DNA of 47,951 bases from Alphaproteobacteria bacterium. Its GTDB lineage: Bacteria > Pseudomonadota > Alphaproteobacteria > GCA-002720895. The notes under the pieces were generated by a model. That model was not told where the DNA came from. It saw nothing but the letters and a program-made list of their open reading frames with translations, and searched no databases. A program made the translations under genes and the position numbers. This document shows positions 18,009-37,068 of this stretch, piece by piece. Where the stretch lies: contig JAKUPP010000006.1 of the NCBI GenBank assembly GCA_022450705.1, positions 1-47,951 on the forward strand. Reading direction: 5' to 3'. The stretch's first letter is position 1; every line of letters starts with the position of its first letter.

Positions 18009-19586
18009 GTGAATAATGAATTTATTTTTTTTTTTACAAATAATACAAAGAAAAATTTAAAATATATTTATTCTTTTTTTCTAGGAATCACACTAGTCGC
18101 ATGCTTCCCACCCTTTAATTTTTGGCCATTACTTTTTCCATCTTTAACTTTTATTTTTTTAAAAAGTTATAATGCAGAATCTGAAAAGGACGCTTTTTTG
18201 ATTGGGTGGTTCTTTGGCTTATCTTTTTTTATGTTTAGTTTGTATTGGATTTTTAATTCTTTTTTAATTAGGTCAGGTACATACATACTACTTCTACCAA
18301 TTTGTCTTCTATCTTTTTCTTGTTTTCTTGCTCTTTTTATAAGTTTTATAACTTATTTAAATTATAAATTTAAAACTAATTTAATTTTTAATATTACTTT
18401 CTTTTCAATTTTCTGGACTTTTAGTGAAATTTTCAGGGGATATTTATTGACTGGCTTTCCGTGGAATTTATTAGCCCATACTCTCTCGGACTTCGATGCC
18501 TTAATACAGATTTGTTCTATAATAGGAGCATACGGTTTAACATTTTTTATAATTTATTTTATTTTAGCATTAAGTATTTTTATTTTAAATTTTAATAAAA
18601 AAAGAAAATACTTTTTGTTTTTATCTTCCTTTTTTATTTTTGCTTCTATTTTTTTCTATGGAATTAATAGACTAAATAATTCAAACTTAAATATATATGG
18701 TTCCGATGTATTTAGAGTAGTTCAACCTAATATAAATCAAATTGATAAATTAAATATTTCAAAAATAGAAAATAATTATAAAAAGTTAATAGATACAAGT
18801 TTCAACAACAAAATGGGCTCTTTGAATAAGTCTGATAATTTAGTTATTTTTTGGCCAGAAACTGCAATATTTAATTTTAATCATATTTATGATTTTAATA
18901 TTTTTAAAAAATTAAATAATAATTTGAAAGAGAATGAGTATGTCATTACTGGAATTTTTAGGAATGAAGACAAAGATTATTATAATAGCATATCGATTAT
19001 TGACAGAAATTTATCAGTAGATTTTGTTTATGATAAAATCCATTTAGTGCCTTTTGGCGAGTATATTCCCTTTAGTAACTTTTTAAATTTTTTTGGATTT
19101 AATTTTTTAGGTTTAAAAAAGGGATATAAAAATCAAAAAATAGTTGAATATAAAAATTTGCCTAAATTTAAACCGTTAATTTGTTATGAATCTATTTTTT
19201 CAGGAAAATTTATAAAAAATAAAAACGAGCCAGTTTTTTTAGTAAACTTTACTAATGATGCTTGGTTTGGTAATACAATTGGGCCATATCAGCATTTTGT
19301 TAATTCCAAATTTAGAGCTGTAGAAGAGGGAAAGCATTTAATTAGAGTAGCTAATACGGGAATTTCTTCTTCTATAGATCCGTTTGGAAGAGTATTAGAG
19401 AAATTAACTTTAAATTCTTCTGGCTATTTTGATACAAAAATTTTTATTGGAAATAAAAACAACGTACCTATAAAAACTATTTTTAGTAAATATAAAAATA
19501 ATTTGGTTATAGTGTTATTAATAATTTTGTTTTTTTTATTAAGTATTTTAAAATATCAAACTCACAAAGGAAAAAAAAAAAGTTGA
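18009..19586 (+). CDS. lnt: Lnt, apolipoprotein N-acyltransferase
   Basis: A 525-residue inner-membrane enzyme that adds the third acyl chain to the N-terminal Cys of lipoproteins. Seen: about six N-terminal membrane helices (residues 17-220), a periplasmic nitrilase domain with the triad Glu in WPETAIF (about 284), Lys in [12 protein letters not shown] (about 343) and Cys in ICYESIF (about 392), and a last helix near 500-517. The start is GTG 18009; no ATG lies closer to the first helix. Its TGA overlaps the metK TTG as TTGA. It would mature lipoproteins such as the one starting at 47744. Confidence 0.95.
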
Positions 19587-20743
19587 AAGAATATACATTT
19601 ACAAGTGAATCAGTCTCAGAAGGACATCCTGATAAGGTTTGTGATTTAATTTCTGATAGTATCGTTGATCTTTTTTTATCGAAAGATCCTGAGTCTAGAG
19701 TTGCAGCTGAAACAATGGTTACAACTAATAAAGTTGTTATTAGCGGAGAAGTTAATGGACCTGATGTATTTAAAGAAACATCACTTGAAGAGTTAGTGAG
19801 AAATACAATAAAAAAAATTGGATATGAACAAGAAGGGTTTAACTGGAAAACTGTATCAATTGAAAATAATCTTCATCAACAATCAGAAGATATTGCAATT
19901 GGTGTAAATAAAAAGAACGAAAAGGAACAAGGCGCAGGTGATCAAGGAATTATGTTTGGGTATGCATGTAATGAAACAAAAGAATTAATGCCTGCTCCTA
20001 TTTATTATTCTCATTTAATTTTGGAATCGTTAGCTAAATCTAGACATAAAGGTGATAACAAACTGTTACTTCCAGATTCTAAGAGTCAAATAAGTTTGGA
20101 TTACAAAAACGGGAAACCTTATAGAGCAAGCGCTATTGTCGTATCAACACAACACGATCCAAGCTTAAAACAAGAAGATGTTAAAGAAATTGTTAGACCA
20201 TATGTAATTGACTCATTGCCCAAAGGCTGGATGTGCGAAGAAGAAAACTTTTTTGTGAATCCAACTGGAAGATTTGTTATTGGGGGTCCAGTTGGCGATT
20301 CTGGTTTAACAGGAAGAAAAATAATAGTTGATACATATGGAGGAGCAGCACCACATGGAGGAGGAGCCTTTTCTGGAAAAGATCCAAGTAAAGTTGATAG
20401 ATCGGGCGCATATGCAGCTAGATATTTAGCAAAGAATATTGTTGCTGCAAAACTTGCAGAAAAATGCACTATCCAACTTTCATATGCAATTGGAATTGCA
20501 AAACCAATTTCAATTTATATTGATACTCACGGCAATAGTAAAATAAAAGGCAACGAAATTTCCGATAAAATATCCGAAATTATGGATTTATCCCCATATG
20601 GAATAAAAAATAAATTATCGTTAAATAGACCAATCTATAGCCAAACTGCTGCTTACGGGCATTTTGGTAGAAAACCCGGAAATAATGGAGAATTTTCATG
20701 GGAAAAAACTGATTTGGTTGAATCTTTAAAAAATATTTTTTGA
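19583..20743 (+). CDS. metK: MetK, S-adenosylmethionine synthetase
   Basis: A 386-residue enzyme making SAM from methionine and ATP. Seen: [17 protein letters not shown] at the N-terminus, the ATP loop [12 protein letters not shown] (about residues 116-127), the P-loop-like [20 protein letters not shown] (about 257-276). The start is TTG 19583, fixed by the conserved [11 protein letters not shown] block only four residues in; it overlaps the lnt stop (TTGA) and its own stop overlaps trmB in the same way. No SAM riboswitch can fit because there is no leader. Confidence 0.97.
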
Positions 20744-21408
20744 AAAAGTCTAAAAAAATATTAATACCTTTATTTTATAAAAAAAAACCAAGACGTCCTT
20801 TAAGTAAAAAACAAAAAGGATTATTAAAATTTACATTACAAAAATTTTTATTTAAAAAAGAAAAAGTTCAAAATAGTAAAAAAAGATTTCTAGAAATAGG
20901 CTTCGGGTATGGAGAAAATATAATACATTTGTCCAAAAAAAATGGTGATAAACTAATTATTGGCTGTGAAATTTATGAACCAGGTATAGCAAATTTAGTT
21001 TCAAAAATTGAAAGTGAAAATTTAAAAAATATCTATATTTTTCCAGAAAATATTTTTTCCTTGTTAAGTAAATTGAAAAAAAATTCAATTGAAAAAATTT
21101 TTATACTTTACCCAGATCCATGGCCAAAAAAAAAACACTATAAAAGAAGATTAATATCTAGCGTATTTTTGAATAAAATTAATAGTGTTCTAAAAACAAA
21201 CGGAATAGTTTTTGTATCTACTGACTCAGAAGATTATTTAAAAGTAATTCTAAATAATTTTTTATTGAATAAAAATTTTTTGTGGGTTAATAAAAAAATC
21301 TCAAATTGTTATAAAAGACCTAAAGACTTAATTGAGACTAAATACGAAAAAAAAGCAAATATTAAAAATAATAAAAAATATTTTTTAAAATTTAAAAAAA
21401 TATGTTGA
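20740..21408 (+). CDS. trmB: TrmB, tRNA (guanine-N7) methyltransferase
   Basis: A 222-residue class I methyltransferase making m7G46 in tRNA with SAM. Seen: SAM-binding [11 protein letters not shown] (about residues 50-60), and the family motif [16 protein letters not shown] (about 126-141). Many orthologues have xHxKRR here, so the active site is intact. The start is TTG 20740, overlapping the metK TGA (TTGA). The normal alphaproteobacterial neighbour rimP does not follow; instead there is an 82-base leader with a terminator-like hairpin. Confidence 0.93.
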
Positions 21409-21464
21409 ACAATAATTTCAAAATATTAGATTATATATAGTTTATATATTCATTATTATTTTTT

Positions 21465-21491
21465 AAATGGGCTTTAAGCCCATTTTTTTTT
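21465..21491 (+). terminator. Strong intrinsic terminator or attenuator directly before nusA
   Basis: AAATGGGC (21465-21472), loop TTTAA, GCCCATTT (21478-21485), then a T run to 21491. The GGGC/GCCC core is striking in this AT-rich sequence and makes this the best intrinsic-terminator match in the window. It lies only 13 bases before the nusA ATG, inside what would be its leader. It either ends the trmB transcript or works as an attenuator for the nusA operon, which NusA itself could influence. No separate nusA promoter is visible downstream of it. Confidence 0.7.
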
Positions 21492-21504
21492 GGTTTATAA
21501 AATT

Positions 21505-23010
21505 ATGTTACTAGAAAACACAGAGTTAATACAAACAGCAGAAAATATTGCCGAAGAAAAAGGTATAGAAAAAGAACTAGTTTTTGAAGCAATTGAAAAA
21601 GCTATATCAAAAGCTGGAAAAGTTAAATACGGAAGTGATTATGATATTAGAGGCAGCATTGATAGAAAAACAGGAAAAATTAGTTTAGCAAGATATCAAG
21701 AAGTAAAAAAAGAAGTAGAGGATAATTTAATTGAAATAAGTCTAAAAGATGCAAAAAAAAAAGAAAAAAATATAAAAATTGGAGAATTTATTATTGAAAA
21801 ATTACCAGATATTGATATTGGAAGAATATCTGCACAAGTCGCAAAACAAGTTTTAGTTCAAAATATAAAAGAAGCGGAGTCAGTTAAAAACTACGAATTA
21901 TATAAGGATAAGGTTGGAGATACTATCAGTGGATTAGTTAAAAGAATGGAATTTGGAAACATAATTATTGATCTTGGTAACGCTGAAGGTGTGATAAAAA
22001 AAGATGAAATGATTCCACGCGAAAATTTAAGAAGAGGAGATAGAGTTAAAACCTATCTATACAATGTTAGTCAAGATACTAAAGGGCCTCAGATTTTTTT
22101 ATCTAGAACCCACCCACAATTTTTAGCCAATTTATTTAAACAAGAAGTTCCTGAAATCAATGATAATATTATTGAAATTAAATCCGTTGCTAGAGATCCA
22201 GGTTCTAGAGCAAAAATAGCAGTTTATTCTTCTGATAAAACAATAGACCCGGTAGGCGCATGTGTAGGAATGAGAGGATCAAGAGTTCAAGCAGTAGTAA
22301 CCGAATTACAAGGAGAAAAAATAGATATAGTCACTTGGTCTGAAGATAAAGCTACTTATATAGTAAATTCTCTAGCTCCAGCACAAATTAATAAAGTTAT
22401 TTTCGAAGAAGATACTGAAAAAATTAAAGTAATTATACCTGAAGATCAGTTAAGCCTTGCAATTGGTAGAAAAGGGCAAAATGTTAGATTAGCTTCTATA
22501 CTAACAAATTGTGAAATAGACATAATTGATGAAAAAGATGAAAAAAATAAAAGAAATGAAGAAATAAAAAGGATTTCAGACACATTTATGAAAGAACTCG
22601 ACGTGGATGAAGTGATAGCGCATTTATTAGCAACAGAAGGTTTTTTATCAATTGAAGAAATAAGCCAAGCTGTTGATACAGATTTTAAAGCAATTGAAGG
22701 TTTCGATGAAAATCTTATAAAAGATCTTAAAGATAGAGCTACGCAAAACATGGCAAAAAGAAAAGTAGAATTAGAAAAGAAGAAAGTTGAGCTAAATATT
22801 TCAAAAGATTTAGAAAGTATAACAAACTTCACATTAACTGATTTAATTAAATTAGGCGAAAACAATATTAAAACTATGGATGATCTAGCTAATTTAGCAA
22901 GTGACGAACTTATCGAAATGCTAGATATAAATAAATTAAAAAAAACAGAAGCAGACGAGATAATAATGAAAGCAAGAGAAAGTTGGTTTAAAGGAGATAA
23001 AAAGAAATAA
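21505..23010 (+). CDS. nusA: NusA transcription termination/antitermination factor
   Basis: A 501-residue RNA polymerase-binding factor. Domains: N-terminal domain (1-130), S1 (about 135-200), two KH domains with ARDPGSRAKIAVYS and AIGRKGQNVRLA (about 235-345), and C-terminal helical repeats (about 350-501) typical of proteobacterial NusA. I chose ATG 21505 (MLLENTELIQTAE) over TTG 21490, because the conserved N-terminus begins there and the TTG falls in the terminator's T run. Its hairpin leader suggests transcription-level control. infB follows after 4 bases; the ylxR gene usual between them is absent. Confidence 0.95.
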   Translation: MLLENTELIQTAENIAEEKGIEKELVFEAIEKAISKAGKVKYGSDYDIRGSIDRKTGKISLARYQEVKKEVEDNLIEISLKDAKKKEKNIKIGEFIIEKLPDIDIGRISAQVAKQVLVQNIKEAESVKNYELYKDKVGDTISGLVKRMEFGNIIIDLGNAEGVIKKDEMIPRENLRRGDRVKTYLYNVSQDTKGPQIFLSRTHPQFLANLFKQEVPEINDNIIEIKSVARDPGSRAKIAVYSSDKTIDPVGACVGMRGSRVQAVVTELQGEKIDIVTWSEDKATYIVNSLAPAQINKVIFEEDTEKIKVIIPEDQLSLAIGRKGQNVRLASILTNCEIDIIDEKDEKNKRNEEIKRISDTFMKELDVDEVIAHLLATEGFLSIEEISQAVDTDFKAIEGFDENLIKDLKDRATQNMAKRKVELEKKKVELNISKDLESITNFTLTDLIKLGENNIKTMDDLANLASDELIEMLDINKLKKTEADEIIMKARESWFKGDKKK

Positions 23011-23014
23011 TTTT

Positions 23015-25060
23015 ATGAATAATAAAGATAGAAAAACAACTACGATAAAACAAACTTTTTCATATGGTAAGTCTAAGACTGTAACTGTAGAAGTAGTACA
23101 AAAAAAAAAAATAAATAAAGAAAAAACTATTCAAACTAATAAAAATGAGAAAAAACTAAAAATTTCTAGTAAACCTAGAAAAAAACTAACTATTAACAAA
23201 AGATTTCACCCTTCTTTTAAAAATAAAATTTTTGAAAATAGACAAGGAAAAGTAAAAGATAATTTTACTAATCAACAAGATGAAAAGAAAAAAATTATTA
23301 AAGAGGTAACAGTTCCTGAGATTATTTCGGTTCAAGAATTAGCAAAAAGAATGGCTGAAAAATCTTCTGATGTTATGAAAGCTTTAATGAAGAACGGCGT
23401 TATGGTTACTATTAACCAAAATATAGATGCAGATACAGCTGAAATTATAGCTGGAGAATTTGGACATAAAGTTAAAAGGGTTGATGATTTTGAACTAGAA
23501 GAAGATTTAAAAAAAAAAGAAGTTGATGATAAAAAAGATTTAGTAGAAAGAGCTCCAATCGTAACAATTATGGGCCATGTTGATCATGGAAAAACAACTT
23601 TGTTAGATGCATTTCGTTCAAGTAGCGTTGTTTCTAAGGAGCATGGCGGGATAACGCAACATATTGGAGCTTATAGAATCATGTCAAAATCTAAAAAATT
23701 TATAACATTTTTTGATACTCCCGGACACGAAGCATTTACTGCAATGAGAGCACGTGGAGCTAAAGTAACTGATATAGTAATCTTAGTAGTTGCCGCGGAC
23801 GATGGGGTTAAAGAAACAACTATTGAAGCTATAAATCATGCAAAAGCTGCAAATGTGCCAATTATTGTTTGTATAAATAAGATCGATCTAAATGAATCAA
23901 ATCCTCAAAATGTAAAAAATCAATTAATGGAGCACGAAATTATTTCAGAAGAAATGGGAGGAAAAAATTTGTTTGTTGAGGTATCTGCAAAGTCAAAAAC
24001 AAATTTAGAAAAACTTGAAGAGGCAATTTTATTACAAGCAGAAATTTTAAATTTAAAAGCTAACCCTTCAAAGAAAGCCAGCGGAATTATTGTTGAATCA
24101 AAAGTTCAACAAGGAAAAGGATCTACTGCAACTGTTTTAATTCAAGAAGGATCATTAAAAATTGGAGATATTTTTGTTGCCGGACCTTCGTATGGAAAAG
24201 TAAGAGCAATGAGTGATGATTTAGGTAAGAAGATAATTCAAGCAAAACCAGCAGTACCTGTTGAAATAATAGGTATAACAGGAACACCAGTTGCAGGAGA
24301 TGAGTTTAATGTTGTTGAAAATGATGCGAAAGCGAAAGAAATAGCAAGTTATAGATTACATAGGTCTAAAATTAGACAAGTTGAACCACTTACAAAAGAA
24401 AGTTTAGAGAAAAAACTTAGCGATAAAAGTAATATAAAAATTAAAGAATTAGGTTTAATTTTAAAATCAGATGTCCAAGGATCTTTGGAAGCAATTATTA
24501 ATGGTATAGAAAAATTTAAAAATGATGAAATAAAAATAAAAATTGTTCATAAAGCTGTAGGAGAAATAAACCAATCAGATATTGCGCTTGCAGTAGCATC
24601 GGAAAGTTCTGTAATTGTAGTAGGGTTTAATGTTAAACCAAATAATTTAGCTAGAGATTTAGCTAAAAGAGACAAAATAGATATTAAGTTTTTTACAGTT
24701 ATATATGAACTACTTGACTACATAAAAGATAGCATGAGCGGTCTTTTAGTTCCTGATAAAAAAGAAGTTTTAAATGGAAAAGCTAAAATTAAAGAAATAT
24801 TTAAGATGTCTAAAATTGGAAAAATTGCAGGTTGTGAAGTAATCGAAGGTAAAATAGAAAAAAATGCTAAAATTAGATTACTAAGAGATAATAAAGTGAT
24901 TTACGATGGAAAATTAAATAGTTTAAAAAAGTTTAAAGAAGAGGCTGCTGAAGTTAAAGAGGGAAGTGAGTGCGGTATGGTTTTAGAAAATTTTCAAGAT
25001 ATCAAACAAAACGATATTTTAGAATCTTATGTTATAGAAGAATTAAAAAGAAGCTTATAA
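23015..25060 (+). CDS. infB: Translation initiation factor IF-2 (short N-terminus)
   Basis: A 681-residue GTPase that brings initiator tRNA to the 30S subunit. Seen: a Lys-rich N-terminal arm (1-90), an IF2_N region ([18 protein letters not shown]), G1 GHVDHGKTT (about 187-195), G3 DTPGHEAF, G4 NKID, domains II-IV and the C2 tRNA-binding end. The G domain starts about residue 180, well earlier than in E. coli, so the N-terminal region is strongly shortened as in small genomes. Start ATG 23015. Confidence 0.97.
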
Positions 25061-25080
25061 TCTAAATTATATTTTTTTAA

Positions 25081-25446
25081 ATGAAGAATAATATAAAATC
25101 ACAAAGGCAATTAAGAGTCGGCCAGCAGTTAAAACATTTAATTTCTGAAGTTATTCTAATAGGCAATTTCGAAAATGAAAAATTGAAAAAAACCCAAATT
25201 ACAGTAACAGAAGTCAATATAAGTCCAAATTTAAAAAAAGCAGATGTTTTTGTGATTTCTAGAAACGATAAAAAAAGTTTTATCAAGTGTTTAAACGAAA
25301 AAAAATTTATTTTTAAAAAGGAAATTGCCGAAAAATTAAATTTAAGATATGTTCCAGATTTAAATTTTTCATTTGATAATAGTTTTGAATATGCCAATAA
25401 AATTGAAAAAATTTTAAAAGAACCAAAAGTACTTAAAGATTTATAA
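25081..25446 (+). CDS. rbfA: Ribosome-binding factor A
   Basis: A 121-residue KH-like protein that binds immature 30S subunits and helps process the 16S rRNA 5' end. Seen: SQRQLRVGQQLKHLISEVI near the N-terminus, VTEVNISPNLKKADVFV, and LRYVPDLNFSFDNSFEYANKIEKIL at the end, the conserved tripartite pattern. It sits between infB and truB, the standard place, 3 bases before truB. Confidence 0.93.
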   Translation: MKNNIKSQRQLRVGQQLKHLISEVILIGNFENEKLKKTQITVTEVNISPNLKKADVFVISRNDKKSFIKCLNEKKFIFKKEIAEKLNLRYVPDLNFSFDNSFEYANKIEKILKEPKVLKDL

Positions 25447-25449
25447 TTT

Positions 25450-26193
25450 ATGAATCCATTAAATAATGATTTGAACGGGTGGCTGGTTATTAATAAAGAT
25501 TTGGGAATGACATCAAGACAGGTTGTTAATATTATAAAAAAAACATTAAATGTAAAAAAAATTGGTCATGCCGGGACTTTAGATCCTTTAGCAACAGGAG
25601 TTTTAGCTCTTGCAGTGGGAAAAGCAACAAAAATGGTAAAATATATAATGGATGGTATGAAAAAGTATAGTTTTACCATCAAATGGGGAATTTCAACTGA
25701 TACCCAAGATGCTGAAGGTAAGATTATTGCAAAATCAAATAAGAAATTAGATAAAATTAAATTAAATTCAGTATTAAAAAGTTTTATAGGGGAAAAAAAT
25801 CAAATTCCGCCAAAATTTTCTGCTGTAAAAGTAAAAGGAAGAAGGGCTTATGATTTGGCAAGAAGTGGTAAAGATTTTTCATTGAAACCTAAAAAAGTTT
25901 TTTTAAAAAAGATTAAAGTTGTTGAAAACAAAACAGATAAAAATAACTATACAAAATTTGAAATTGAATCTGGAAAAGGTTTTTATGTAAGAAGTTTAGT
26001 TAGAGATATATGTAAGAAATTAAATATGGATGGCCATGTTATAGAATTAAAAAGAATAGAGTCAGAACCGTTTAATTTAGAAAGTTCTATATCAATTAAA
26101 GATTTTTTAAGATTACATGAAAAGAATGATTGGAAAAATAATTTTTTACCTATATATTCTGTTTTAAATAAAATTAAATATGTTGGAAAATAA
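25450..26193 (+). CDS. truB: TruB, tRNA pseudouridine-55 synthase
   Basis: A 247-residue pseudouridine synthase modifying U55 in the T loop of tRNAs. Seen: GWLVINKDLGMTSRQVV, the catalytic block HAGTLDPLATGVL with Asp45, QIPPKFSAVKVKGRRAYDLAR, and GFYVRSLVRDI. It is shorter than the E. coli protein (about 310), ending soon after the catalytic domain, so the C-terminal PUA-like part is reduced. Its 3' end overlaps rpsO by 14 bases. Confidence 0.95.
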   Translation: MNPLNNDLNGWLVINKDLGMTSRQVVNIIKKTLNVKKIGHAGTLDPLATGVLALAVGKATKMVKYIMDGMKKYSFTIKWGISTDTQDAEGKIIAKSNKKLDKIKLNSVLKSFIGEKNQIPPKFSAVKVKGRRAYDLARSGKDFSLKPKKVFLKKIKVVENKTDKNNYTKFEIESGKGFYVRSLVRDICKKLNMDGHVIELKRIESEPFNLESSISIKDFLRLHEKNDWKNNFLPIYSVLNKIKYVGK

Positions 26194-26449
26194 TTTAACT
26201 AAAGATAAAATTATAAGCGAGTTTCAGAAAAAAAATAAAGATACAGGATCTTCTGAAGTTCAAATAGCCTTATTAACAAAAAGGATAAATTCTTTAACTG
26301 AACATTTTAAAAAAAATAAGAAAGATAACCATTCAAGAGAAGGTATGATTAAATTAATAAGTAGAAGAAGAAGGCTGATTTTATATCTAAAAAAAAATAA
26401 TTTGAAAAGGTACGAAGAAATAATAAAAAAACTCAACTTACGTAAATAA
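26180..26449 (+). CDS. rpsO: Ribosomal protein S15
   Basis: An 89-residue 30S protein that nucleates central-domain assembly. Seen: [36 protein letters not shown] and [11 protein letters not shown], nearly the whole S15 signature. The start ATG 26180 lies inside the truB coding frame (14-base overlap); the S15 alignment supports this start because the normal first helix begins a few residues in. In E. coli S15 represses its own mRNA; the overlap with truB leaves little room for that structure. pnp follows 5 bases later. Confidence 0.95.
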
Positions 26450-26454
26450 TATTA

Positions 26455-28578
26455 GTGTTTGATATCATAAAAAAAGAAATTCAATGGGGCGGTAAAAAGC
26501 TAGTTCTTGAAACAGGCAGAGTAGCAAGACAAGCAAGTGGAGCGGTCTTAGCTACTTATGGAGAAACCACCGTTTTATGTACAGTGGTTGCATCTAAAGA
26601 ACCTAGAGAAGATGTAGATTTTTTACCTTTAACAGTAAGTTATCAAGAAAAAACATTTGCAGCTGGAAAAATACCAGGCGGATTTTTTAAAAGAGAAGCA
26701 AAACCATCAGATAAGGAAACATTGATATCGAGGTTAATTGATAGACCTATTAGACCTTTATTTCCTGAAAATTATTTTAACGAGACACAAATTATATGTA
26801 CTTTATTAAATTTAGATAAAGATACTAGTCCTGACGTAGTTGCTTTTATAGGAGCTTCTGCTGCTTTAGCATTATCTGGAGCACCTGTTCAATCAACTGT
26901 TGCTGCTGCTAAAGTAGGATACATTGATAAAAAATTTGTTCTTAATCCATCTAAATCTCAACTTGAAAATTCTGATTTAGAGTTAGTTGTTGCAGGTACA
27001 AAAGATGGAGTTTTAATGGTTGAGTCAGAAGTAAAAGAATTGCCAGAAAAAATAATGTTAGATGCTGTTATGTTTGCACATAAAGAATTTCAAGATGTAA
27101 TTAAATTTATTGAAACTTTTGCAAAAGGAAAAAAAGTATCTGAAATAGAATATAAAAACGAGAATGGAGATAAAAATTCAAAAGATCTATTTAGTAAAAT
27201 TGAAAAAAAATATAAAAATGATTTTGTTAATGCATATAAAGAAAAAGATAAAGCAATTAGATCAGATGCTTTGTTAGGAATTAGAAAAAAAATTACCGAA
27301 GAATTTATTGTAGAAGATAATGATGAGATAACAGAAAATTTGGTTTCGTCTGCAACAAAAAAAGTAGAAAAAGAATTAGTAAGATCTAGTATTTTAAAAT
27401 CTGGGAAAAGAATTGATGGAAGAGATACTAAAACTGTCAGACCGATTAAAGCCGAGGTCGGAGTTCTTTCCAGAGTTCACGGAAGCGCTCTTTTTACAAG
27501 AGGAGAAACCCAAGCACTGGTAGTGACTACATTAGGTACAAGTTTAGACGAACAAATTATAGATGACTTAGAAGGTGAGTTTAAAGAAAGTTTTATGCTA
27601 CATTATAATTTTCCACCTTATTCAGTTGGAGAAGCTAATATGCTTAGACCACCTGGTAGACGTGAAATTGGTCATGGTAAATTAGCATGGAGAGCAATTA
27701 AACCACTTATGCCAATTAAAGATAAATTTCCATATACAATCAGAGTAGTTTCAGAAATTACAGAATCTAATGGTTCTTCATCTATGGCAACTGTTTGTGG
27801 AACATCTCTATCATTAATGGATGCTGGCGTTCCTTTAGAAAAACCTATTGCTGGTATTGCAATGGGTTTAATCAAAGAAGAAAAAGATTATGCAATTCTT
27901 TCAGATATATTAGGCGATGAAGATCACTTGGGAGATATGGACTTTAAAGTTGCTGGAACTAAAGATGGTATTACTGCTCTTCAAATGGATATAAAAATTA
28001 CAAGTATAACAAAAGAAATTATGGAAAAAGCATTATCGCAGGCTCTGGATGGAAGAATTAAAATTTTATCGGAAATGGATAAAGCAATTGCTTCTTCTCG
28101 AAAAGAATTAAATAGTAATGCACCACAAATACAAACTATAAAAATTGATCCAGCTAAAATTAAAGATGTGATTGGCTCTGGTGGAAAAGTTATTAAATCT
28201 ATAACTGAAGAAACAGGTGCGAAAATTGATATTGAGGATGATGGTACTATTAAAATAGCTTCAACAGATTCAGAAGGCGGAAAATTAGCATTAGAAAAAA
28301 TTGAAAATATTACTGCAGAACCTGAAATAGACGAGATATATAGTGGTACAGTTGTAAAAACAATGGATTTCGGAGCTTTTGTTAATTTTATGGGATCAAA
28401 AGATGGTTTAGTTCATATTTCAGAATTAGCTGATAGAAGAGTAGGAAAGACCACTGATGTTGTAAAAGTTGGAGATAAAGTTACAGTTAAAGTCATAGGT
28501 TTTGATAATAGAGGTAAAATTAAATTAAGTATGAAAGAATTAAAACAAAAGAATGAAAAAAATTTTAATAGAGCCTAA
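26455..28578 (+). CDS. pnp: Polynucleotide phosphorylase
   Basis: A 707-residue phosphorolytic 3'-5' exoribonuclease and degradosome component. Domains: RNase PH 1 (1-220), helical linker (to about 300), RNase PH 2 (about 310-540), KH with [20 protein letters not shown] (about 560-620) and S1 (about 625-695) with [15 protein letters not shown]. Start GTG 26455 gives the expected [17 protein letters not shown]-terminus. Full length. Conserved rpsO-pnp pair. Confidence 0.97.
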
Positions 28579-28583
28579 ATAGT

Positions 28584-29090
28584 ATGGTTAAGAATAGTTT
28601 TACATATGATGATTTAATTGAATGTGCAAAAGGCAAACTTTTTGGAGAAGGAAATGCAAAACTACCCGCCCCGCCTATGCTAATGATGGATAGAATTACA
28701 AAAATTACCAAAGATGGAGGCAATTATAATAAAGGAGAAATTATTGCCGAATTAGATATTAAACCTAACTTATGGTTTTTTGATTGCCATTTTAAAAATG
28801 ACCCTGTAATGCCAGGATGTTTGGGTTTAGACGCGCTATGGCAACTAGTTGGTTTTTTCTTAGGTTGGCTAGGAGCTCCAGGTAAAGGAAGGGCATTAGG
28901 TGTTGGAGAAGTCAAATTTTCAGGCGAGGTATTAAATTTTGCAAAGAAAGTAAAATATACACTTCATATAAAAAAAGTAATTATTAAAAGATTAGCCCTT
29001 GCTGTTGCAGATGGTATTATGTCAGTAGATGGAAAAAATATTTATACTGCAAAAGATCTTAAAGTTGGACTTTTTAAATCTGAAAAATAA
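28584..29090 (+). CDS. fabA: FabA, 3-hydroxydecanoyl-ACP dehydratase/isomerase
   Basis: A 168-residue hotdog-fold enzyme that dehydrates 3-hydroxydecanoyl-ACP and isomerises the product to cis-3-decenoyl-ACP, the entry to unsaturated fatty acids. Seen: [13 protein letters not shown], the catalytic [19 protein letters not shown] with His69 and Asp83 (E. coli His70 and Asp84), and [10 protein letters not shown]. It lies 5 bases after pnp and 15 before the FabB-FabI gene, so the three catalytic steps (FabA, FabB, FabI) are encoded in a row. Confidence 0.96.
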
Positions 29091-29105
29091 ATTTGAGGTT
29101 TACTA

Positions 29106-31148
29106 TTGAAAAGAGTTGTTGTAACTGGAATTGGAATAGTTTCATGCATCGGAAATACTCTTAAAGATGTAACGGATTCTCTTTACAATGCTAAACCAGG
29201 AATAACTTTTAGTAAAGAACACGAAGAGCTCGGTTTTAGAAGCCACGTATATGGCAAGCCAGAAATAAATTTAGAAGAAAAAATAGATAGAAGAGTATTA
29301 AGATTTATGGGAGATGGAGCAGCTTTCAATCATATTGCTATGGAAGATGCAATCAAACATGCAAATTTATCAGAAGAACGCGTTTCAAATGTTGAAACTG
29401 GAATAATTATGGGATCAGGTGGCCCATCTACAAGAAATATAGTTGAAGCAGCAGAAATACTTAAAAAAGAAAAAAATTCAAAAAAAGTAGGGCCATTTAG
29501 AGTCCCTAGAGCTATGAGTAGTACAAACTCTGCAACATTAGCAACAACATTTAAAATTAAAGGAGTAAATTATTCAATTAGTTCAGCTTGCTCAACCAGC
29601 GCTCATTGCGTTGGTAACGCATATGAACTTATTCAAATGGGAAAGCAAAAAATTATTTTTGCAGGAGGTGGAGAAGAATTAGACCCAACTTTGTCTGTAT
29701 TATTTGATGCTATGGGCGCTTTATCATCAAAATATAATAAGGAACCAGGAAAATCATCACGAGCATATGATAAAGATAGAGATGGTTTTATTATTGCAGG
29801 AGGAGCAGGCGTCCTAGTAATGGAAGAGCTAGAAAGTGCTCTTAAAAGATCCGCAAAAATTTATGCTGAAATTGTAGGATATGGCGCAAACTCAGATGGT
29901 CATGATATGGTTCAACCATCAGGAGAAGGCGCAGTAAGGTGCATGAAGCAATCATTAAATGGCCTGAATTTAAAAATTGATTATATTAATACGCATGGAA
30001 CAAGTACTCCAATAGGAGATATTAAAGAAATTGAAGCAATGAAAGATTTATTTAAAGAAGACATGCCATGTTTTAGTTCAACTAAATCATTAACTGGGCA
30101 TTCATTAGGCGGAACAGGTGTTCAAGAAGCAATTTATTCTATATTAATGATGAATAATAATTTTATTTGTAAATCTGCGAATGTTGAAAATTTAGATCCT
30201 GAAGTAGAAGGATTACCTATTGTATTAGAAACTAAAAAAGATTGTGATTTTAATACTTTGTTGAGCAATAGTTTTGGTTTTGGGGGAACAAATGCCTCTT
30301 TAGTTTTTAAAAAATTTGATGCTGAAGAAAAAACTAATTCTATTCCAAAAAAAATTGATGCAGAAAATGAATTTCAAGGAAAAAAAGGAATTATATTTGG
30401 TGTCGCAAATGACCATTCATGTGCTTGGGGTATAGCTAACGGGTTGTTAGAAAAAGGGGCAGAATTATGTATTACCTACCAAAATGATTTATTAAAAAAA
30501 AGGGTAGAAAGTTTATGTAAATCAAAAAATGCATGTGTATTAAAATGCGACGTATCTCAGTCCAACAATATAGAAAATTTATATAAAGAGATAAAAAATA
30601 AATGGGGTAAAATAGATTTTATAGTTCATTCGGTTGCTTATTCAGATAAAAATGAATTAGCAGGAGAATATCTAAATACTTCTAAAGAAAATTTTTTAAA
30701 TACATTATTAATTTCTTGTTACTCTTTTACTGAAATTGCTCAAAAATTTTCAGATATAATTAATCCTCAAGGATCATTATTAACTTTATCATATTTTGGG
30801 TCTCAAAAAGTAATTCCTAATTACAATGTAATGGGAGTAGCAAAAGCAGCTCTTGAAACAAGCGTTAAATATTTGGCAGTAGACTTAGGGGATCAAAAGA
30901 TTAGAGTTAACGGTATTTCTTTAGGACCTATGAGGACATTATCGGGTGCAGCTATTAAAGATGCTAGATATATATATAATTGGACTGAAAAAAATAGTCC
31001 TCTTGGTAAAAGTATTAATTTTCAAGATTTGTCAGGTTCAAGCAATTATTTATTAAGTGATCAATCTAGCGGAGTTACAGGGGAAATTCATTATGTTGAT
31101 GCAGGATATAATGTTATAGGAATGATAAAACCCCCCGAAAAAGCTTGA
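29106..31148 (+). CDS. FabB-FabI fusion: beta-ketoacyl-ACP synthase I + enoyl-ACP reductase
   Basis: A 680-residue protein read in one frame with no internal stop. Residues 1-403 are FabB (KAS I), extending acyl-ACP with malonyl-ACP: [10 protein letters not shown] start, catalytic Cys162 in SSACSTSAH, His297 in [11 protein letters not shown], Lys327 and His332 in [12 protein letters not shown], each one less than E. coli numbering. Residues 404-422 are a charged linker ([10 protein letters not shown]). Residues about 423-680 are Fab[16 protein letters not shown] cofactor loop, HSVAY, Tyr563, Tyr573 and Lys580 in [12 protein letters not shown] (E. coli Tyr146, Tyr156, Lys163), and [17 protein letters not shown]. 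There is no Met in the linker, so FabI has no start of its own. The start is TTG 29106, fixed by the conserved first residues. Separate fabB and fabI genes lie next to each other in many alphaproteobacteria, so fusion by stop loss is easy to picture. Confidence 0.93.
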
Positions 31149-31181
31149 AAAGTTTGTTTAACTAACTTAATTTAACTTTAT

Positions 31182-31598
31182 ATGACAACAGAAACTAAAA
31201 ATAAATTTTTTTCGTTTTTAAAAAAAAATGGTTTAAAACCCACATCTCAAAGAAATTTAGTTGTAAAGCAACTTTTGAATGGAAAAGATAGACATTTCAC
31301 CGCAGAAGATTTGTACGATGAAATGAAACTAAAGAAAACAAATATTTCTTTAGCAACAATTTATAACACTCTTCATAGTTTTGTGGAAAAAAAAATTTTA
31401 AAACTTGTTTCTGTTAAAGAAGGTAAAGCAATTTTTTGTACTAATATGAAAAATCATTATCATTTTTTTAATCCAAAAACTGGAAAATTAACTGATATAC
31501 CTTTTCAAAAAATACAAATCAAAAAATTACCAAAACCACCTAAAGGTACAAAAATAGATAATATTGAAATTACAATTAATTTAAATACAAAGAATTAA
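31182..31598 (+). CDS. irr: Irr-like Fur-family iron response regulator
   Basis: A 138-residue Fur-superfamily protein. Seen: GLKPTSQRNLVVKQLL, HFTAEDLYDE, recognition helix ISLATIYNTLHSFVE, then NHYHFFNPKTGKLTDIPFQ and the ending LPKPPKGTKIDNIEITINLN, which I recognise as Irr (LP-PP-GT-I---V-V--L pattern). Irr proteins sense heme and control iron and heme genes. It follows the FabB-FabI gene by 33 bases; in rhizobia irr also neighbours fabA, but upstream. Its stop overlaps the convergent SH3 gene by TTAA. Heme sensing is inferred, not visible in a short motif. Confidence 0.86.
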   Translation: MTTETKNKFFSFLKKNGLKPTSQRNLVVKQLLNGKDRHFTAEDLYDEMKLKKTNISLATIYNTLHSFVEKKILKLVSVKEGKAIFCTNMKNHYHFFNPKTGKLTDIPFQKIQIKKLPKPPKGTKIDNIEITINLNTKN

Positions 31599-32047
31599 TT
31601 TTTTATTCCCCATAAATATTTTTTTTCGACCCATCCTTTATATTTTTTAATTTTTACTTTACAAAATACCTCATCACAATTTATAATTTTTCCGACAACT
31701 CCCTTTTTTACAATTGCACTTATAATATTATTATCTTTATATTTAAGTAGGTTTTGATCTTGCTTATTTATAAAAGTTCTTTTATTTGAAATCATACTTA
31801 CATGCACCCAACTTTCAGCACCATCTATATCTCTTATTTCTCTCCAATTATCACGTTCTCTTATTATTAAAATAGGTAAATTTTCTTTTTGATAAATCCA
31901 CTCAAGCGGCGCATCAAAGCTTGCGTTATGTCTAGAATATGTTTTTTCTTTTTTTATGGACGCATATTTTGGAGTAAATGTATAATCTCTTGAATAAAGA
32001 TTTATTGGAACAATTAAAAGAAGAAGTATAAAAAATATTTCTTTCAT
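31595..32047 (-). CDS. Secreted bacterial SH3-domain protein
   Basis: A 150-residue protein with a signal peptide (about residues 1-19, ending LYSRD) and SH3_4-type sequence: SRHNASFDAPLEWIYQKENL, LPILIIRERDNWREIRDIDG and AESWVHVSMISNKRT, then a second, weaker SH3-like half with VGKIINCDEVFCKVKIK and GWVEKKYLWG. These are common alphaproteobacterial periplasmic SH3 proteins of unknown function, probably cell-wall related. It lies 1 base after the E1-like gene and may share its operon. No enzyme motif is present. Confidence 0.82.
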   Translation of the reverse strand: MKEIFFILLLLIVPINLYSRDYTFTPKYASIKKEKTYSRHNASFDAPLEWIYQKENLPILIIRERDNWREIRDIDGAESWVHVSMISNKRTFINKQDQNLLKYKDNNIISAIVKKGVVGKIINCDEVFCKVKIKKYKGWVEKKYLWGIKN

Positions 32048-32048
32048 A

Positions 32049-32813
32049 TTAATTACATATGGGACATTTCTTATTTTTTTTAAACTTTATTTCTTTAAAT
32101 CTATTAAGAAGCAAATCTAAAATAATCAATTTTCCGACTGAGTTTTTTCCTATTCCTAAAATATCTTTTATAACTTCTACAGATTGTAATGATCCAGCGA
32201 TTCCTGCAATTCCACCTACTATCCCACAATCTTGATAATCTGTTTTATAATTATCCTGATTTATTTTAGGGAACATACATCTATAACAAGGATTATTTTT
32301 TGATTTAATCCATCCTTTTATAGTTGTTATTTGGGCTTCAAATCCTCTTAATGCAGCGGATACCAGAGTTTTTTTATTTCTAACACAACTTTCATTAATT
32401 AAATATTTAGTTTCAAAATTATCACTTCCATCAACAATTACATCATAACTTTTTAAGATGTTATCAATGTTTTGTTTTATTATTTTTTTTTTGTAAATAT
32501 TAATTTTTAATTTTGGATTTATTAATAATAATTTTTTTTTTGCAACTTCTACTTTAGATTTGTTAATACTTTTTTGATCGAAAAGCACTTGTCTTTGTAA
32601 ATTTGAAAGTTCTACTTTATCATAATCTGCTATACCTAAAGTACCAATACCTGCCGATGTTAAGTACATTGAAACAGGGGAACCTAATCCACCCATTCCT
32701 AAAATAAATACCTTAGACATTAATAATTTTTTTTGTCCATCAAGCCCTATATTTTTAAGGATAATTTGGTGGGCATATCTTTGAATATCTTTTTCACTTA
32801 ATGTTTTTAACAT
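32049..32813 (-). CDS. MoeB/ThiF/HesA-like E1-type adenylyltransferase
   Basis: A 254-residue E1-like enzyme that adenylates the C-terminus of a ubiquitin-like sulfur carrier (MoaD, ThiS or similar). Seen: RYAHQIILKNIGLDGQ, ATP loop GMGGLGSPVSMYL (about residues 36-48), the Arg finger block DYDKVELSNLQRQVLF, DGSDNFETKYLIN, a DCGIVGG block and two zinc CxxC pairs (CYRC and CPIC). There is no C-terminal rhodanese domain, unlike MoeZ or Uba4. It is 5 bases downstream of cysK. Which carrier it serves (molybdopterin, thiamine or cysteine synthesis) is not decided by the sequence. Confidence 0.86.
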   Translation of the reverse strand: MLKTLSEKDIQRYAHQIILKNIGLDGQKKLLMSKVFILGMGGLGSPVSMYLTSAGIGTLGIADYDKVELSNLQRQVLFDQKSINKSKVEVAKKKLLLINPKLKINIYKKKIIKQNIDNILKSYDVIVDGSDNFETKYLINESCVRNKKTLVSAALRGFEAQITTIKGWIKSKNNPCYRCMFPKINQDNYKTDYQDCGIVGGIAGIAGSLQSVEVIKDILGIGKNSVGKLIILDLLLNRFKEIKFKKNKKCPICN

Positions 32814-32818
32814 TTAAA

Positions 32819-33769
32819 TTAATTAAATAATGCGGTTGATAAATATCGTTCAGCAAAAGAAGGAATAACTACAACTATTTTTTTATTTTTCATTTCTTTT
32901 CTTTGAGCCACTTCAATCCCTGCAGCTAGAGCTGCTCCTGAAGAAATTCCAATTGGCAAACCTTCAACCTTTGCAGCCATTCTTGCTGTGGAAAATGCAG
33001 TTTCGTTAGCAATTTGTATTACTTCATCTATTGATTTTTTATTAAGAATTTTTGGTATAAATCCAGCGCCGATACCCTGAATTTTATGTGGTCCGGCTGC
33101 ACCTCCAGAAAGAATTGGACTATCTTCTGGTTCTACCGCAATAATTTTTATTTTTTTATTTTTTTTTTTTAATATTTTACTTACACCTGTTAGAGTACCG
33201 CCTGTTCCAACGCCCATTATAACAGCATCTAAATTTCCATTAGTATCATTTAAAATTTCTATAGCTGTTGTTTTTTGATGTATTTCAGGGTTTGCAGAAT
33301 TTTCAAATTGTTGCGGCATAAATGAATTTTTATTTTTTTTTTTAATTTCTAATGCTTTTTCTATTGCTCCTTTCATACCTTTATCTGCAGGTGTTAATAT
33401 AAGTTTTGCGCCAAGAAGTATTAGCATTTTTCTTCTTTCAACAGACATTGATTCTGGCATTATTAAAGTAAGTTGATAACCTTTAGCCGCGCAAACAAAT
33501 GCTAAACTTATACCTGTATTTCCTGAGGTAGGTTCAACAATTAAAGTATTTTTTTTTACTAATCCTAATTTTTCTCCTCTTTCAATCATAGCTAGCCCAA
33601 TCCTATCTTTTACTGAAGACAAAGGATTAAAAAATTCTAGTTTACATATAAGTTCTCCAAAACAATTATATTTTTTTGATATTCTAGGAACTTTTATTAA
33701 AGGAGTATTTCCAATAGTTTCTAAAATACTGTTATAAATTTTATTTCTTATAGTTTTTATTTTTTCCAT
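32819..33769 (-). CDS. cysK: CysK-type O-acetylserine sulfhydrylase
   Basis: A 316-residue PLP enzyme making cysteine from O-acetylserine and sulfide. Seen: IGNTPLIKVPRI, the PLP lysine in NPLSSVKDRIGLAM (Lys about residue 51), the substrate loop TSGNTGI (about 80-86), QQFENSANPEIH, the phosphate loop GTGGTLTG (about 190-197), and the C-terminal SSGAAL. It lies between an Rrf2 regulator and an E1-like gene; the spacing (3 and 5 bases) suggests an operon for sulfur assimilation. The SSVKDRI form marks it as CysK rather than CBS. Confidence 0.95.
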   Translation of the reverse strand: MEKIKTIRNKIYNSILETIGNTPLIKVPRISKKYNCFGELICKLEFFNPLSSVKDRIGLAMIERGEKLGLVKKNTLIVEPTSGNTGISLAFVCAAKGYQLTLIMPESMSVERRKMLILLGAKLILTPADKGMKGAIEKALEIKKKNKNSFMPQQFENSANPEIHQKTTAIEILNDTNGNLDAVIMGVGTGGTLTGVSKILKKKNKKIKIIAVEPEDSPILSGGAAGPHKIQGIGAGFIPKILNKKSIDEVIQIANETAFSTARMAAKVEGLPIGISSGAALAAGIEVAQRKEMKNKKIVVVIPSFAERYLSTALFN

Positions 33770-33772
33770 TAT

Positions 33773-34222
33773 TTAAATTGTAAAATCTATTTTTTTTTCT
33801 TTATTGATAAAATTCTGTATTTTTCCAAAGTTTTTATGCAAATCGTATATGCTAGTAGATTTAAAAGAATTTATAAGTTCATTTGTGGTTTCTGATATAA
33901 AAGGGTTAATAATTTTAGATCTTATTGGGGTATTTGTAATTTTTTTTTCTTTATTCACTTCTTCCATTTCTAAAACGGCATTATAAATATCAATAAGAAA
34001 TATATTTCTTTTTTCTCTACCAAGAGTGTATCCTCCATTTGGTCCTCTCGTACCTTTTAATATTGCATGCCTCACTAATTCTTGTAAGATTTTTTCTAGA
34101 TATCTTGATGGTATACCTTGTCTTTTTGTTATTTCACTTGCTCTCGTAGGTGAATGAGATGAATAAATAGATATATCTAAAACAGCTTCTATTGCATGTA
34201 AAAATTTTTTATTAAAAATCAT
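33773..34222 (-). CDS. Rrf2-family regulator without cluster cysteines
   Basis: A 149-residue winged-helix regulator. Seen: the DNA-binding half ITKRQGIPSRYLEKILQELV, then KGTRGPNGGYTLGREKRNIFLIDIYNAV, the Rrf2 signature (about residues 30-85). The IscR/NsrR three-cysteine [Fe-S] motif should follow, but the protein contains no cysteine at all. CymR of Bacillus is a cysteine-light Rrf2 protein that controls cysteine genes and binds CysK; the gene here sits 3 bases before cysK, which makes a CymR-like job attractive. That is inference from context, not homology. Confidence 0.85.
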   Translation of the reverse strand: MIFNKKFLHAIEAVLDISIYSSHSPTRASEITKRQGIPSRYLEKILQELVRHAILKGTRGPNGGYTLGREKRNIFLIDIYNAVLEMEEVNKEKKITNTPIRSKIINPFISETTNELINSFKSTSIYDLHKNFGKIQNFINKEKKIDFTI

Positions 34223-34234
34223 TTTTTTTGCTTT

Positions 34235-34684
34235 TTATAAACCTGTTGATCCAAAACCTGAACTTTTTCTTTTAGTAGTATGTTCATTAATTTTTTTCTT
34301 TTCTTTCCATTTTATTTTTTCCACTTTGGCGATTATTAATTGTGCTATTCTCATTCCTCTTTCAATTACAAATACTTTTTTACCATGATTGATTAAAATT
34401 ATTTTTATTTCTCCTCTATAATCTGCATCAATTGTACCAGGCGTATTAAGAACTGTTATCCCATATTTTGCTGCAAGTCCAGACCTAGGTCTTATCTGAG
34501 CTTCCAGGTTTTTTTTTAACGCAATCTTTATTCCCGTTGGTATTGTTATAAATTCTCCATTTTTTATTTTTATTTTATTTTTTATTGCAGCATATAAATC
34601 TAGTCCAGAACAATTTTCAGAACCATAATTTGGTAATGGCACATCTTTAGCATGGGATAACTTTTGTATTTCAATATTTAACAT
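34235..34684 (-). CDS. dut: dUTPase
   Basis: A 149-residue trimeric dUTP nucleotidohydrolase that keeps uracil out of DNA and supplies dUMP. Seen: the motifs in order, SGLDLYA, RPRSGLA (about residues 63-69), NTPGTIDADYRGEI, RGMRIAQLII and the C-terminal RKSSGFGSTG arm that closes the active site. Complete. The dut-coaBC-ubiE grouping is the alphaproteobacterial arrangement; 18 bases separate it from coaBC. Confidence 0.97.
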   Translation of the reverse strand: MLNIEIQKLSHAKDVPLPNYGSENCSGLDLYAAIKNKIKIKNGEFITIPTGIKIALKKNLEAQIRPRSGLAAKYGITVLNTPGTIDADYRGEIKIILINHGKKVFVIERGMRIAQLIIAKVEKIKWKEKKKINEHTTKRKSSGFGSTGL

Positions 34685-34702
34685 TGTATTTAATAAAAAA
34701 TT

Positions 34703-35899
34703 TTAATTTAAGTATAAAGACACTTCTTTAATAATTTTTTCAGCTAATTTTTTTTTTGTCATTTTACTCCAATTTTTTTGTTTGTTTTTTCCAAGCACAG
34801 ATATTTCGTTAAAATCACTACCTATAGGATTAAATTGATCACTTATTTTATTTGCAAATATAAAATCACATTTTTTACTTAAAAGTTTTTTTCTGGCATT
34901 ATTTATTAATAAGTTTGTCTCTGCGGCGAAGCCACAAACAATTTTTGGTCTTTTTTTTTTCAAATTTGAAATCATATGTAAAATATCTTTATTTTCCTTA
35001 TATTTTATTTGATTAAAAATATTTTCATTTTTTTTATATTTTTTATCTTTTTTTTTTATTTTCCAATCAGATACAGCTGCTGTTAAAAAAGCTATATCAA
35101 TTAAATTTTTTTTACATATTTTAATACTTTCATTAAACATTTCTTCTGCAGATTTAACTTTAATTAATTTCGTAACTTCAGGGGGCTCAATATATGTTTG
35201 CCCTGTTATAAGAATAGTTTCAGCTCCATAAGTATAAGCACAATTGGCAATTTCATAACCTTGTTTACCTGATGAAAAATTTGATATATACCTTACCGGA
35301 TCTATTGCTTCAATAGTCGGACCAGCAGTTACTAATATTTTTTTTTTATTTATTATTTTTTTTGTATAAAAAAAATCTTTGATATTTTTTTTTATTATTT
35401 TTATTTCTTCCATTCTTCCAAAGCCAATTTCTCCACAAGCTAAATTTCCTTTAGTAGGTCCAATAATCTTTACTTCCCTATTTTTTAATTCTTTTATATT
35501 TTTCTTATTAGCTGGATTTTCCCACATTTTTTTATTCATTGCAGGAACGATAAAAATTTTTTTATTAGCAGCAGCTAAAGTTGTTGAAGCTAAATCATCG
35601 GCATAGCCATTTGCTAATTTTGCAATAATATTTGCACTAGCAGGGCAAACAACTACCAAATCTGAGTTTCTTGTTAAATTAATATGCTCCATATGATTTA
35701 ACGATTCCTTTTTCGAAAAAATATCAGTATGGATTTTTTTATTTATTAATGAAGAAACTGATAATGGTGTAAGAAATTTTTGACCTGATTTTGTTAGAAT
35801 TACTTCTATATCAAAATTTTCATTTATGAGATATTTTAGTAAATCCAATGACTTATATGCAGATATACTTCCACTTATTATAAATAATATTTTTTTCAA
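34703..35899 (-). CDS. coaBC: CoaBC, phosphopantothenoylcysteine synthetase/decarboxylase
   Basis: A 398-residue bifunctional coenzyme A enzyme. N-terminal CoaC flavoprotein domain (1-180): FIISGSISAYKSLDLLKYL, active-site His in MEHINLTRNSD, PAMNKKMW. C-terminal CoaB domain (about 185-398): ILVTAGPTIEAIDPVRYI, SNFSSGKQGYEIA, AAVSDW and GFAAET. Complete. It lies between dut and ubiE; the ubiB kinase-like gene common between ubiE and coaBC in relatives is missing. Confidence 0.96.
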   Translation of the reverse strand: MKKILFIISGSISAYKSLDLLKYLINENFDIEVILTKSGQKFLTPLSVSSLINKKIHTDIFSKKESLNHMEHINLTRNSDLVVVCPASANIIAKLANGYADDLASTTLAAANKKIFIVPAMNKKMWENPANKKNIKELKNREVKIIGPTKGNLACGEIGFGRMEEIKIIKKNIKDFFYTKKIINKKKILVTAGPTIEAIDPVRYISNFSSGKQGYEIANCAYTYGAETILITGQTYIEPPEVTKLIKVKSAEEMFNESIKICKKNLIDIAFLTAAVSDWKIKKKDKKYKKNENIFNQIKYKENKDILHMISNLKKKRPKIVCGFAAETNLLINNARKKLLSKKCDFIFANKISDQFNPIGSDFNEISVLGKNKQKNWSKMTKKKLAEKIIKEVSLYLN

Positions 35900-35957
35900 T
35901 TTCTAATTTACTAAATAAATATGTAAATTATAGCAATAAAATAGAAAAATTAAACGA

Positions 35958-36665: not shown

Positions 36666-36737
36666 TTTTCTATTTCTTTATTTTTTTTATTTAATTTAAA
36701 ATTATAGTTTTAAATATGAAAAAAAATTTAAAAAATG

Positions 36738-36766
36738 TTGGATTATTTTATAATTTTGTTTATAAG
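36738..36766 (+). promoter_or_regulatory. Sigma70-type promoter of rpsT
   Basis: TTGGAT (36738-36743), 17-base spacer, TATAAG (36761-36766), 27 bases before the rpsT ATG. Good spacing and position in the ubiE/rpsT divergent gap (36666-36793). Confidence 0.55.
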
Positions 36767-36793
36767 TGATTAAATATTTTTTTTATTAATTTT

Positions 36794-37054
36794 ATGCCTA
36801 TTACAAAGTCAGCTAAAAAAAGAGCAAGACAAGAAAAAATTAGAAATGCTAGAAACAAAGCAATTTCTATGAAAGCTAAAAAGAATATAAAAACACTTTT
36901 AGAGTTTATAGTTAAAAAAGATAAAAAAAAATCTCAGGAACTTTTTAAAATTTGTCAAAAACAGTTAACCAAGACTGGAAACCGTGGAATTTTAAAAAAA
37001 AAAAAGATTTCGAGAAAAATTTCATCCTTAAATAAGCAAATTAAAGCAATATAA
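36794..37054 (+). CDS. rpsT: Ribosomal protein S20
   Basis: An 86-residue basic 30S protein. Seen: the family start SAKKRARQEKIRNARNKA and the ending GILKKKKISRKISSLNKQIK. Complete. It has its own promoter (36738-36766) and a hairpin terminator (37069-37111). rpsT upstream of dnaA is a common alphaproteobacterial arrangement, with mutM usually upstream of rpsT but not here. Confidence 0.95.
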   Translation: MPITKSAKKRARQEKIRNARNKAISMKAKKNIKTLLEFIVKKDKKKSQELFKICQKQLTKTGNRGILKKKKISRKISSLNKQIKAI

Positions 37055-37068
37055 GACGATTCTTACCG

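Follow-up and report, generated by a model that had tools for sequence, protein, structure and literature searches.

A rimP-leader-type terminator hairpin directly before nusA in Alphaproteobacteria without detectable rimP, and its probable role in NusA autoregulation

A terminator hairpin of the rimP-leader type stands directly before nusA in the 47,951-nucleotide stretch of alphaproteobacterial DNA analysed here (the window), in a genome in which no rimP was found. This element is probably a rimP-leader attenuator that was kept after the loss of rimP and that now acts as an autoregulatory attenuator of NusA. The element is of a known kind and its arrangement, a rimP-leader on nusA in several reduced alphaproteobacterial families, is new. 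The evidence lies in the identity, place, copy number and conservation of the hairpin and in the absence of rimP from the genomes searched.

The rimP-leader was described as a terminator whose stem, GGGc(...)gCCC, is conserved and is followed by a U-stretch; it stands ahead of rimP-nusA-infB, 4-130 nt from the gene start, with no visible antiterminator (Naville & Gautheret 2010, PMC2965389). In the same report rimP headed the ranking of genes for which attenuators had been predicted, and the discoverers named its leader the most ubiquitous transcription attenuator. A search of titles, abstract openings and word counts found no announcement of a rimP-leader on nusA after rimP loss.

The locus and its leader

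The trmB gene for tRNA (guanine-N7)-methyltransferase (20740..21408, plus strand; PF02390, 153.9 bits) ends with its stop codon at 21408, and the ATG of nusA lies at 21505, so that the intergenic sequence reads as 96 bases (21409-21504). The nusA gene (21505..23010, plus strand), whose 501-aa product is the proposed effector behind the leader, carries PF08529, PF13184 and PF00013 above cut-off, with its S1 domain at 21.5 bits against a Pfam cut-off of 22. The next gene is infB, encoding IF2 (23015..25060, plus strand; PF11987, PF00009, PF04760). Pfam confirmed the identities of TrmB, NusA, MetK and IF2 in the window; in relatives, the trmB and metK genes that precede nusA were assigned from a motif or on visual inspection. 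In many Alphaproteobacteria a small ylxR-type gene sits between nusA and infB. Such a gene is missing here, where infB starts 4 bases after nusA (23010-23015).

The intergenic sequence opens with an A+T-rich spacer (21409..21464, plus strand), the candidate promoter region of the leader, which contains the genus-shared blocks ATTAGATTA and TTATATAT. The hairpin follows at 21465..21485 (plus strand), assigned by fold, conservation and the covariance model R1 described below. It reads AAATGGGCT-TTA-AGCCCATTT and forms nine perfect pairs, four of them G-C, around a loop of three, with a core TGGGC...GCCCA in which the GGGC/GCCC part reads AAATGGGC...GCCCATTT. Its folding energy is -10.7 kcal/mol, and 2 of 200 shuffles folded equally well. 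A run of nine T's (21483..21491, plus strand), the first three of which are paired in the stem, makes the terminator U-tract, and 13 unconserved bases (21492..21504, plus strand) remain ahead of the start codon. The stem thus ends 19 nt and the T-run 13 nt before the nusA start, and the first stem base is 40 nt from the start codon. The original prediction, a GGGC/GCCC hairpin in rimP's place within 96 bases between trmB and nusA, with a T run ending 13 bases from nusA, proved right on the sequence. Since the T-run ends only 13 bases from the ATG, transcription of a nusA mRNA whose leader has the usual length has to run through the hairpin. A transcription start downstream of the hairpin would have to lie within these 13 poorly conserved bases.

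The predicted fold of 21405-21510 contains the hairpin and weak A-U helices, and inspection by eye revealed no RNA antiterminator in it. A tRNA search of the window found none, and blastn of the leader against phages gave no match.

Absence of rimP

The Pfam domain RimP_N (PF02576) is present in 329 of 385 genomes of the class. It was matched in none of the six genomes of the window's order at E ≤ 0.001, nor in the window's own genome even at E ≤ 10. A profile built from 20 RimP proteins, mostly of small alphaproteobacterial genomes, gave no hit at E ≤ 1 in any of 25 rimP-less genomes, of which six belong to the window's family, and recovered 10 of 10 held-out low-scoring controls. An earlier claim that rimP is absent therefore stands at the locus, and the search for the gene elsewhere ended without a match in the genomes searched, those of the order being 54-89% complete (79% for the window's own genome, 54-89% for the other five). 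That completeness is what could be said for a rimP hidden in missing parts of the assemblies or diverged beyond recognition, an explanation that is barely credible against the negative profile result, which extends to five single-contig f98 and f30 genomes that are 99-100% complete (f98, f30, f141 and the like are family codes used in this analysis). It is further opposed by the window itself, in which trmB and nusA are contiguous and the usual place of rimP is consequently empty.

The 56 class genomes without RimP_N comprise 5 of the window's genus and 51 others. Among the latter, 36 were used for nusA loci and 15 were dropped, 14 with no NusA and one with fragments only (G078). Some of the genomes counted as rimP-less may just be incomplete. 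One contig (L052, genome G148) breaks off 490 bases upstream of nusA, and the NusA that it encodes differs little from that of a rimP-positive locus (L098).

The usual gene order had been given as trmB-rimP-nusA. In a partial check, 15 of 25 rimP-positive nusA loci carried a TrmB peptide motif no more than 1.5 kb upstream, as did 4 of 30 rimP loci from small genomes and 17 of 41 rimP-less nusA loci.

Identity of the hairpin

The covariance model R1 was built from 37 aligned hairpins upstream of rimP in rimP-positive Alphaproteobacteria and contains no rimP-less sequence. Over the 48-kb window it gave a single significant place, 21462-21492 on the plus strand, at 25.8 bits and E 0.0002, the E-values of this home-made model being rough. 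The runners-up were the hairpin's own complement (12.3 bits) and a first unrelated place (11.9 bits). In the alignment of the 37 leaders the stem is paired in 97.3% of cells and both sides change in 3 of 8 pairs; the GGG/CCC columns are invariant by construction, as possession of the TGGG..CCC[AG] core was the criterion for entering the alignment. The pair adjoining the core is G-C in 36 of the 37 rimP leaders and A-U both in the remaining one and in the window, which is a two-sided change.

Beyond the window, R1 matched 15 of 40 other rimP-less loci at E<0.05, each time before nusA, in six families: 4/4 in the window's genus, 4/4 in f98, 3/3 in f30, 1/1 in f141, 1/1 in f143 and 2/2 examined in f68. 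A hairpin of f169 (L048) was picked up by the hairpin scan and missed by R1. Among 25 rimP-positive nusA loci, which are the best NusA matches and come in part from R1 training genomes (e.g. G122, G063, G320), R1 located the leader at E<0.05 in 21, at a distance of over 500 bases on the 5' side of nusA. That a model derived from rimP-positive genomes matches in several rimP-less families supports the proposal that nusA took over the old leader when rimP was lost.

Rfam gave no match in the window at gathering scores. At E ≤ 10 only sub-gathering matches appeared, the strongest of which aligned RF02420 with the strand complementary to the hairpin. The Rfam rimP family, RF01770, concerns the same operon and likewise consists of a hairpin with a U-tract, and the window aligned weakly to its model positions 30-102; it is, however, described as a gammaproteobacterial family, and its gathering score of 47 bits was missed at 15.7 bits.

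RF02420 (Bp1_162, 'Burkholderia sRNA') aligned to 21447-21490 on the minus strand. At the start of its consensus stand an A-run and a UGGGCG...CGCCCA hairpin, as a rimP-leader-like hairpin and its T-run would read in reverse complement, and for that reason RF02420 may be a rimP-leader read on the wrong strand.

Occurrence and conservation across genomes

A hairpin with a T-run was found upstream of rimP in 47 of 70 rimP-positive regions and contained GGG..CCC in 38 (shuffle means 1.0 and 0.15); these regions are a non-random sample, made up of the 30 best of 40 small genomes and 40 hand-picked high-scoring plus-strand matches. Upstream of nusA the scan returned a hairpin in 18 of 41 rimP-less loci, 16 of them with GGG..CCC (shuffle mean 0.2), and in 1 of 25 rimP-positive loci, where GGG..CCC was never seen (shuffle mean 0.2). 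The TGGG..CCC[AG] core with a U-tract was present before rimP in 37/70 and before nusA of rimP-less genomes in 13/41, and it was found in none of 25 rimP-positive genomes within 260 bases before nusA. Reading the core backward as a control gave 1, 0 and 0 in these three sets. Counts on the other strand were 5, 3 and 0, and the hairpins are near-palindromes.

The exact pattern TGGGC-N3-6-GCCCATTTTT occurred in 9 of 18 genomes searched, as a single copy in each and always just before nusA, and its backward control pattern did not occur. Five of these nine genomes belong to the window's genus and four to f98. The other nine are G005, a genome of the window's family in which the NusA search gave no match, and genomes of f30, f141 and f9; f30 and f141 carry a GGTGGG/CCC(A/G)CC form of the leader. 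In the window's own genome the pattern AAATGGGCNNNNAGCCCATTT is found at one place, matching both strands as a palindrome.

Within the window's genus, all 17 stem columns (21465-21472 and 21477-21485) are invariant in 5/5 genomes, and the T-run is invariant to 21490 in 5/5, so that the proposed check of hairpin conservation in relatives came out positive. Invariance falls to 1 of 4 alignment columns in the loop, 32 of 58 columns in the spacer and 2 of 15 alignment columns in 21491-21504 before the ATG.

This pattern of conservation bears on a plainer explanation, namely that the hairpin serves the trmB operon as a normal 3' terminator and lies before nusA by chance, and that polymerase reaches nusA by reading through or starts at a promoter that escaped notice, with no regulation involved. 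The hairpin does begin 56 bases after the trmB stop, where it would end that transcript, and hairpins with T's arise by chance in such A+T-rich DNA: a generic terminator scan of 19000-27000 found 3 against 2.9 expected. The scan is not significant alone, and the significance rests on conservation and on the leader motif. Both speak against a mere trmB terminator, as the leader core is common to the hairpins before rimP in other families, the exact pattern adjoins nusA as a single copy in 9/9 genomes that have it, and the stretch behind the hairpin is short and unconserved. In the rimP-less family f98, trmB precedes the hairpin in one genus, and in another, g179 (L067), the gene there reads by eye as metK; the upstream gene varies while the link of the leader to nusA stays. 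A trmB terminator is accordingly regarded as unlikely.

The hairpin might also have arisen anew in the genus and resemble a rimP-leader by convergence, a short G+C-rich stem and a T run being simple to make. The stem has just nine pairs, and rimP-less nusA loci with no such hairpin are common (23 of 41, all 4/4 of f9 included). Nevertheless, R1 was trained without rimP-less sequences and ranks this hairpin first and alone in 48 kb, two families hold one TGGGC/GCCCA core per genome, and the pair next to the core shows the two-sided change that is shared with one of the 37 rimP leaders. Convergence is thus rated very improbable, and descent from a rimP-leader is retained as the preferred reading.

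How often rimP was lost was considered on a NusA tree made by a quick method from the first 335 residues of 89 rows. The presence of rimP requires 12 changes on this tree, and the starred, well-supported branches force only 2. The rimP-less families that bear the hairpin fall in four places, and no starred branch links any of them to its neighbours; the tree puts f9 beside f141 and the window's genus (support 90, unstarred), and a warning of long-branch attraction attaches to the grouping of the L064 group with L097. Several independent losses of rimP are therefore likely. NusA was found in five of the six genomes of the window's order. It is 88-89% identical in the marine Alphaproteobacteria AG-464-G09 (a single-cell genome) and the MAGs SP38, SP2998 and MarineAlpha6_Bin4; the record titles of SP38 and SP2998 give Pelagibacteraceae.

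Intrinsic terminators seem scarce in the window. Scans of 1-27000 and 28000-47951 found 18 terminator-like places, and the nusA leader was the only one (1/18) outside ORFs of at least 80 aa. The leader would be a regulatory RNA retained in a reduced genome, in a window whose scanned parts contain no other terminator-like hairpin outside the longer ORFs.

Proposed mechanism and comparison with known systems

Termination, read-through, the position of the promoter and NusA as the effector are inferred in the following model. RNA polymerase that has started at a promoter within the spacer or farther upstream, or that has continued from trmB, would transcribe the hairpin and U-tract before reaching nusA, and a fraction of polymerases would stop at the hairpin. 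Polymerase-bound NusA would favour formation of the hairpin in the exit channel and thereby increase stopping. At high NusA, transcription of nusA-infB would decrease, which would limit the synthesis of NusA and IF2. Regulation by NusA through the hairpin in this organism is suggested by analogy with Bacillus subtilis and by the pattern of retention. The original prediction set a leader left fused to nusA and an attenuator through which NusA tunes its own operon side by side as alternatives; the comparative evidence favours the two together, with control by NusA as the probable function. Against this reading stand the incompleteness of the order's genomes, the score below the RF01770 gathering value, a promoter score no better than that of shuffles, the f169 hairpin missed by R1, and the fact that rimP-less genomes do not generally keep the leader, 23 of 41 loci having no such hairpin.

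Several properties of the rimP-leader attenuator are shared by the window's element: the GGGc...gCCC core, the U-stretch right after the stem, the position at the head of the operon with infB next, the stem lying 19 nt from the first gene (range 4-130), the lack of a visible antiterminator by eye, and the lack of a larger conserved aptamer. It differs in that nusA takes the first position, with rimP missing, and in that the T-run ends 13 nt before nusA; rimP as first gene is the usual position of the rimP-leader and not part of the RNA element. A further difference lies in the pair flanking the TGGGC/GCCCA core, which is A-U in place of the usual G-C.

Both RimP and NusA were weighed as effectors of the rimP-leader, and NusA was favoured (PMC2965389). 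In B. subtilis, a NusA-stimulated intrinsic terminator ahead of nusA controls NusA synthesis (PMC12288461). The window's element resembles that leader as an intrinsic terminator ahead of nusA, but NusA control in B. subtilis is experimental and here it is proposed, the phylum is distant, and rimP (ylxS) heads the operon there (PMC2965389, PMC12288461). RimP is not the effector in rimP-less cells, since such cells have no RimP, and that the leader has stayed with nusA where rimP was lost agrees with NusA in this role.

The leader might instead have been kept for another regulator, such as NusG, Rho or translation status, and this has a small though real chance of being correct, as the cases of NusA feedback cited are those of E. 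coli and B. subtilis, neither of them alphaproteobacterial (PMC2965389, PMC12288461). It is countered by the leader staying with nusA in several families once rimP is gone, and by the stimulation of about 75% of intrinsic terminators by NusA in B. subtilis (PMC12288461). NusA consequently remains the preferred effector.

A bolder form of the NusA model has about an even chance of holding: the UGGGC/GCCCA hairpin would be a dedicated NusA sensor whose stem sequence is read by NusA, beyond any strength that it has as a terminator, and which was kept for nusA alone after a possibly repeated loss of rimP. If so, the rimP-less Alphaproteobacteria would constitute a natural deletion series separating NusA from RimP as effector. 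A leader on nusA without detectable rimP is in itself a natural deletion that argues for NusA, and not RimP, as the sensor. The version with 40 nt from stem to start would be a very short circuit and an easy one to test in vitro.

Cis-regulatory RNAs are also known from the streamlined marine alphaproteobacterium Ca. Pelagibacter ubique (Meyer et al. 2009, PMC2704228), and in this respect the window's leader is alike. The abstract of that paper names a riboswitch class and leaders of the genes for S2, S12 and the signal recognition particle protein, and the word count of nusA for PMC2704228 is zero.

Promoter search and minor observations

A promoter search upstream of the stem in the window gave a best score of 9 against a shuffle mean of 9.1. 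Over the 37 rimP-positive leaders the mean best score was 7.4 against 6.6 for shuffled sequences, a slight excess.

In the rimP-less family f68 (0.9-Mb genomes), a GGCGGGG-type terminator precedes nusA at L064 1404-1437 and at L066 3047-3080, and a promoter-like TTGCAT-N16/17-(T/C)ATAAT lies about 25 bases upstream of the terminator in both genomes. The scores of the promoter-like sequences are 9 and 8 against shuffle means of 8.2 and 8.5, so that their recurrence is the sole hint.

Elsewhere in the window, at 29106-31148 on the plus strand and directly 3' of a FabA gene, a single 680-aa ORF fuses a beta-ketoacyl synthase (Pfam match 1-360) with an enoyl-ACP reductase (432-669). The relative G004 (L154 1066-3126) has an ORF of 686 codons whose ends match those of the window's synthase-reductase fusion, the comparison covering the ends.
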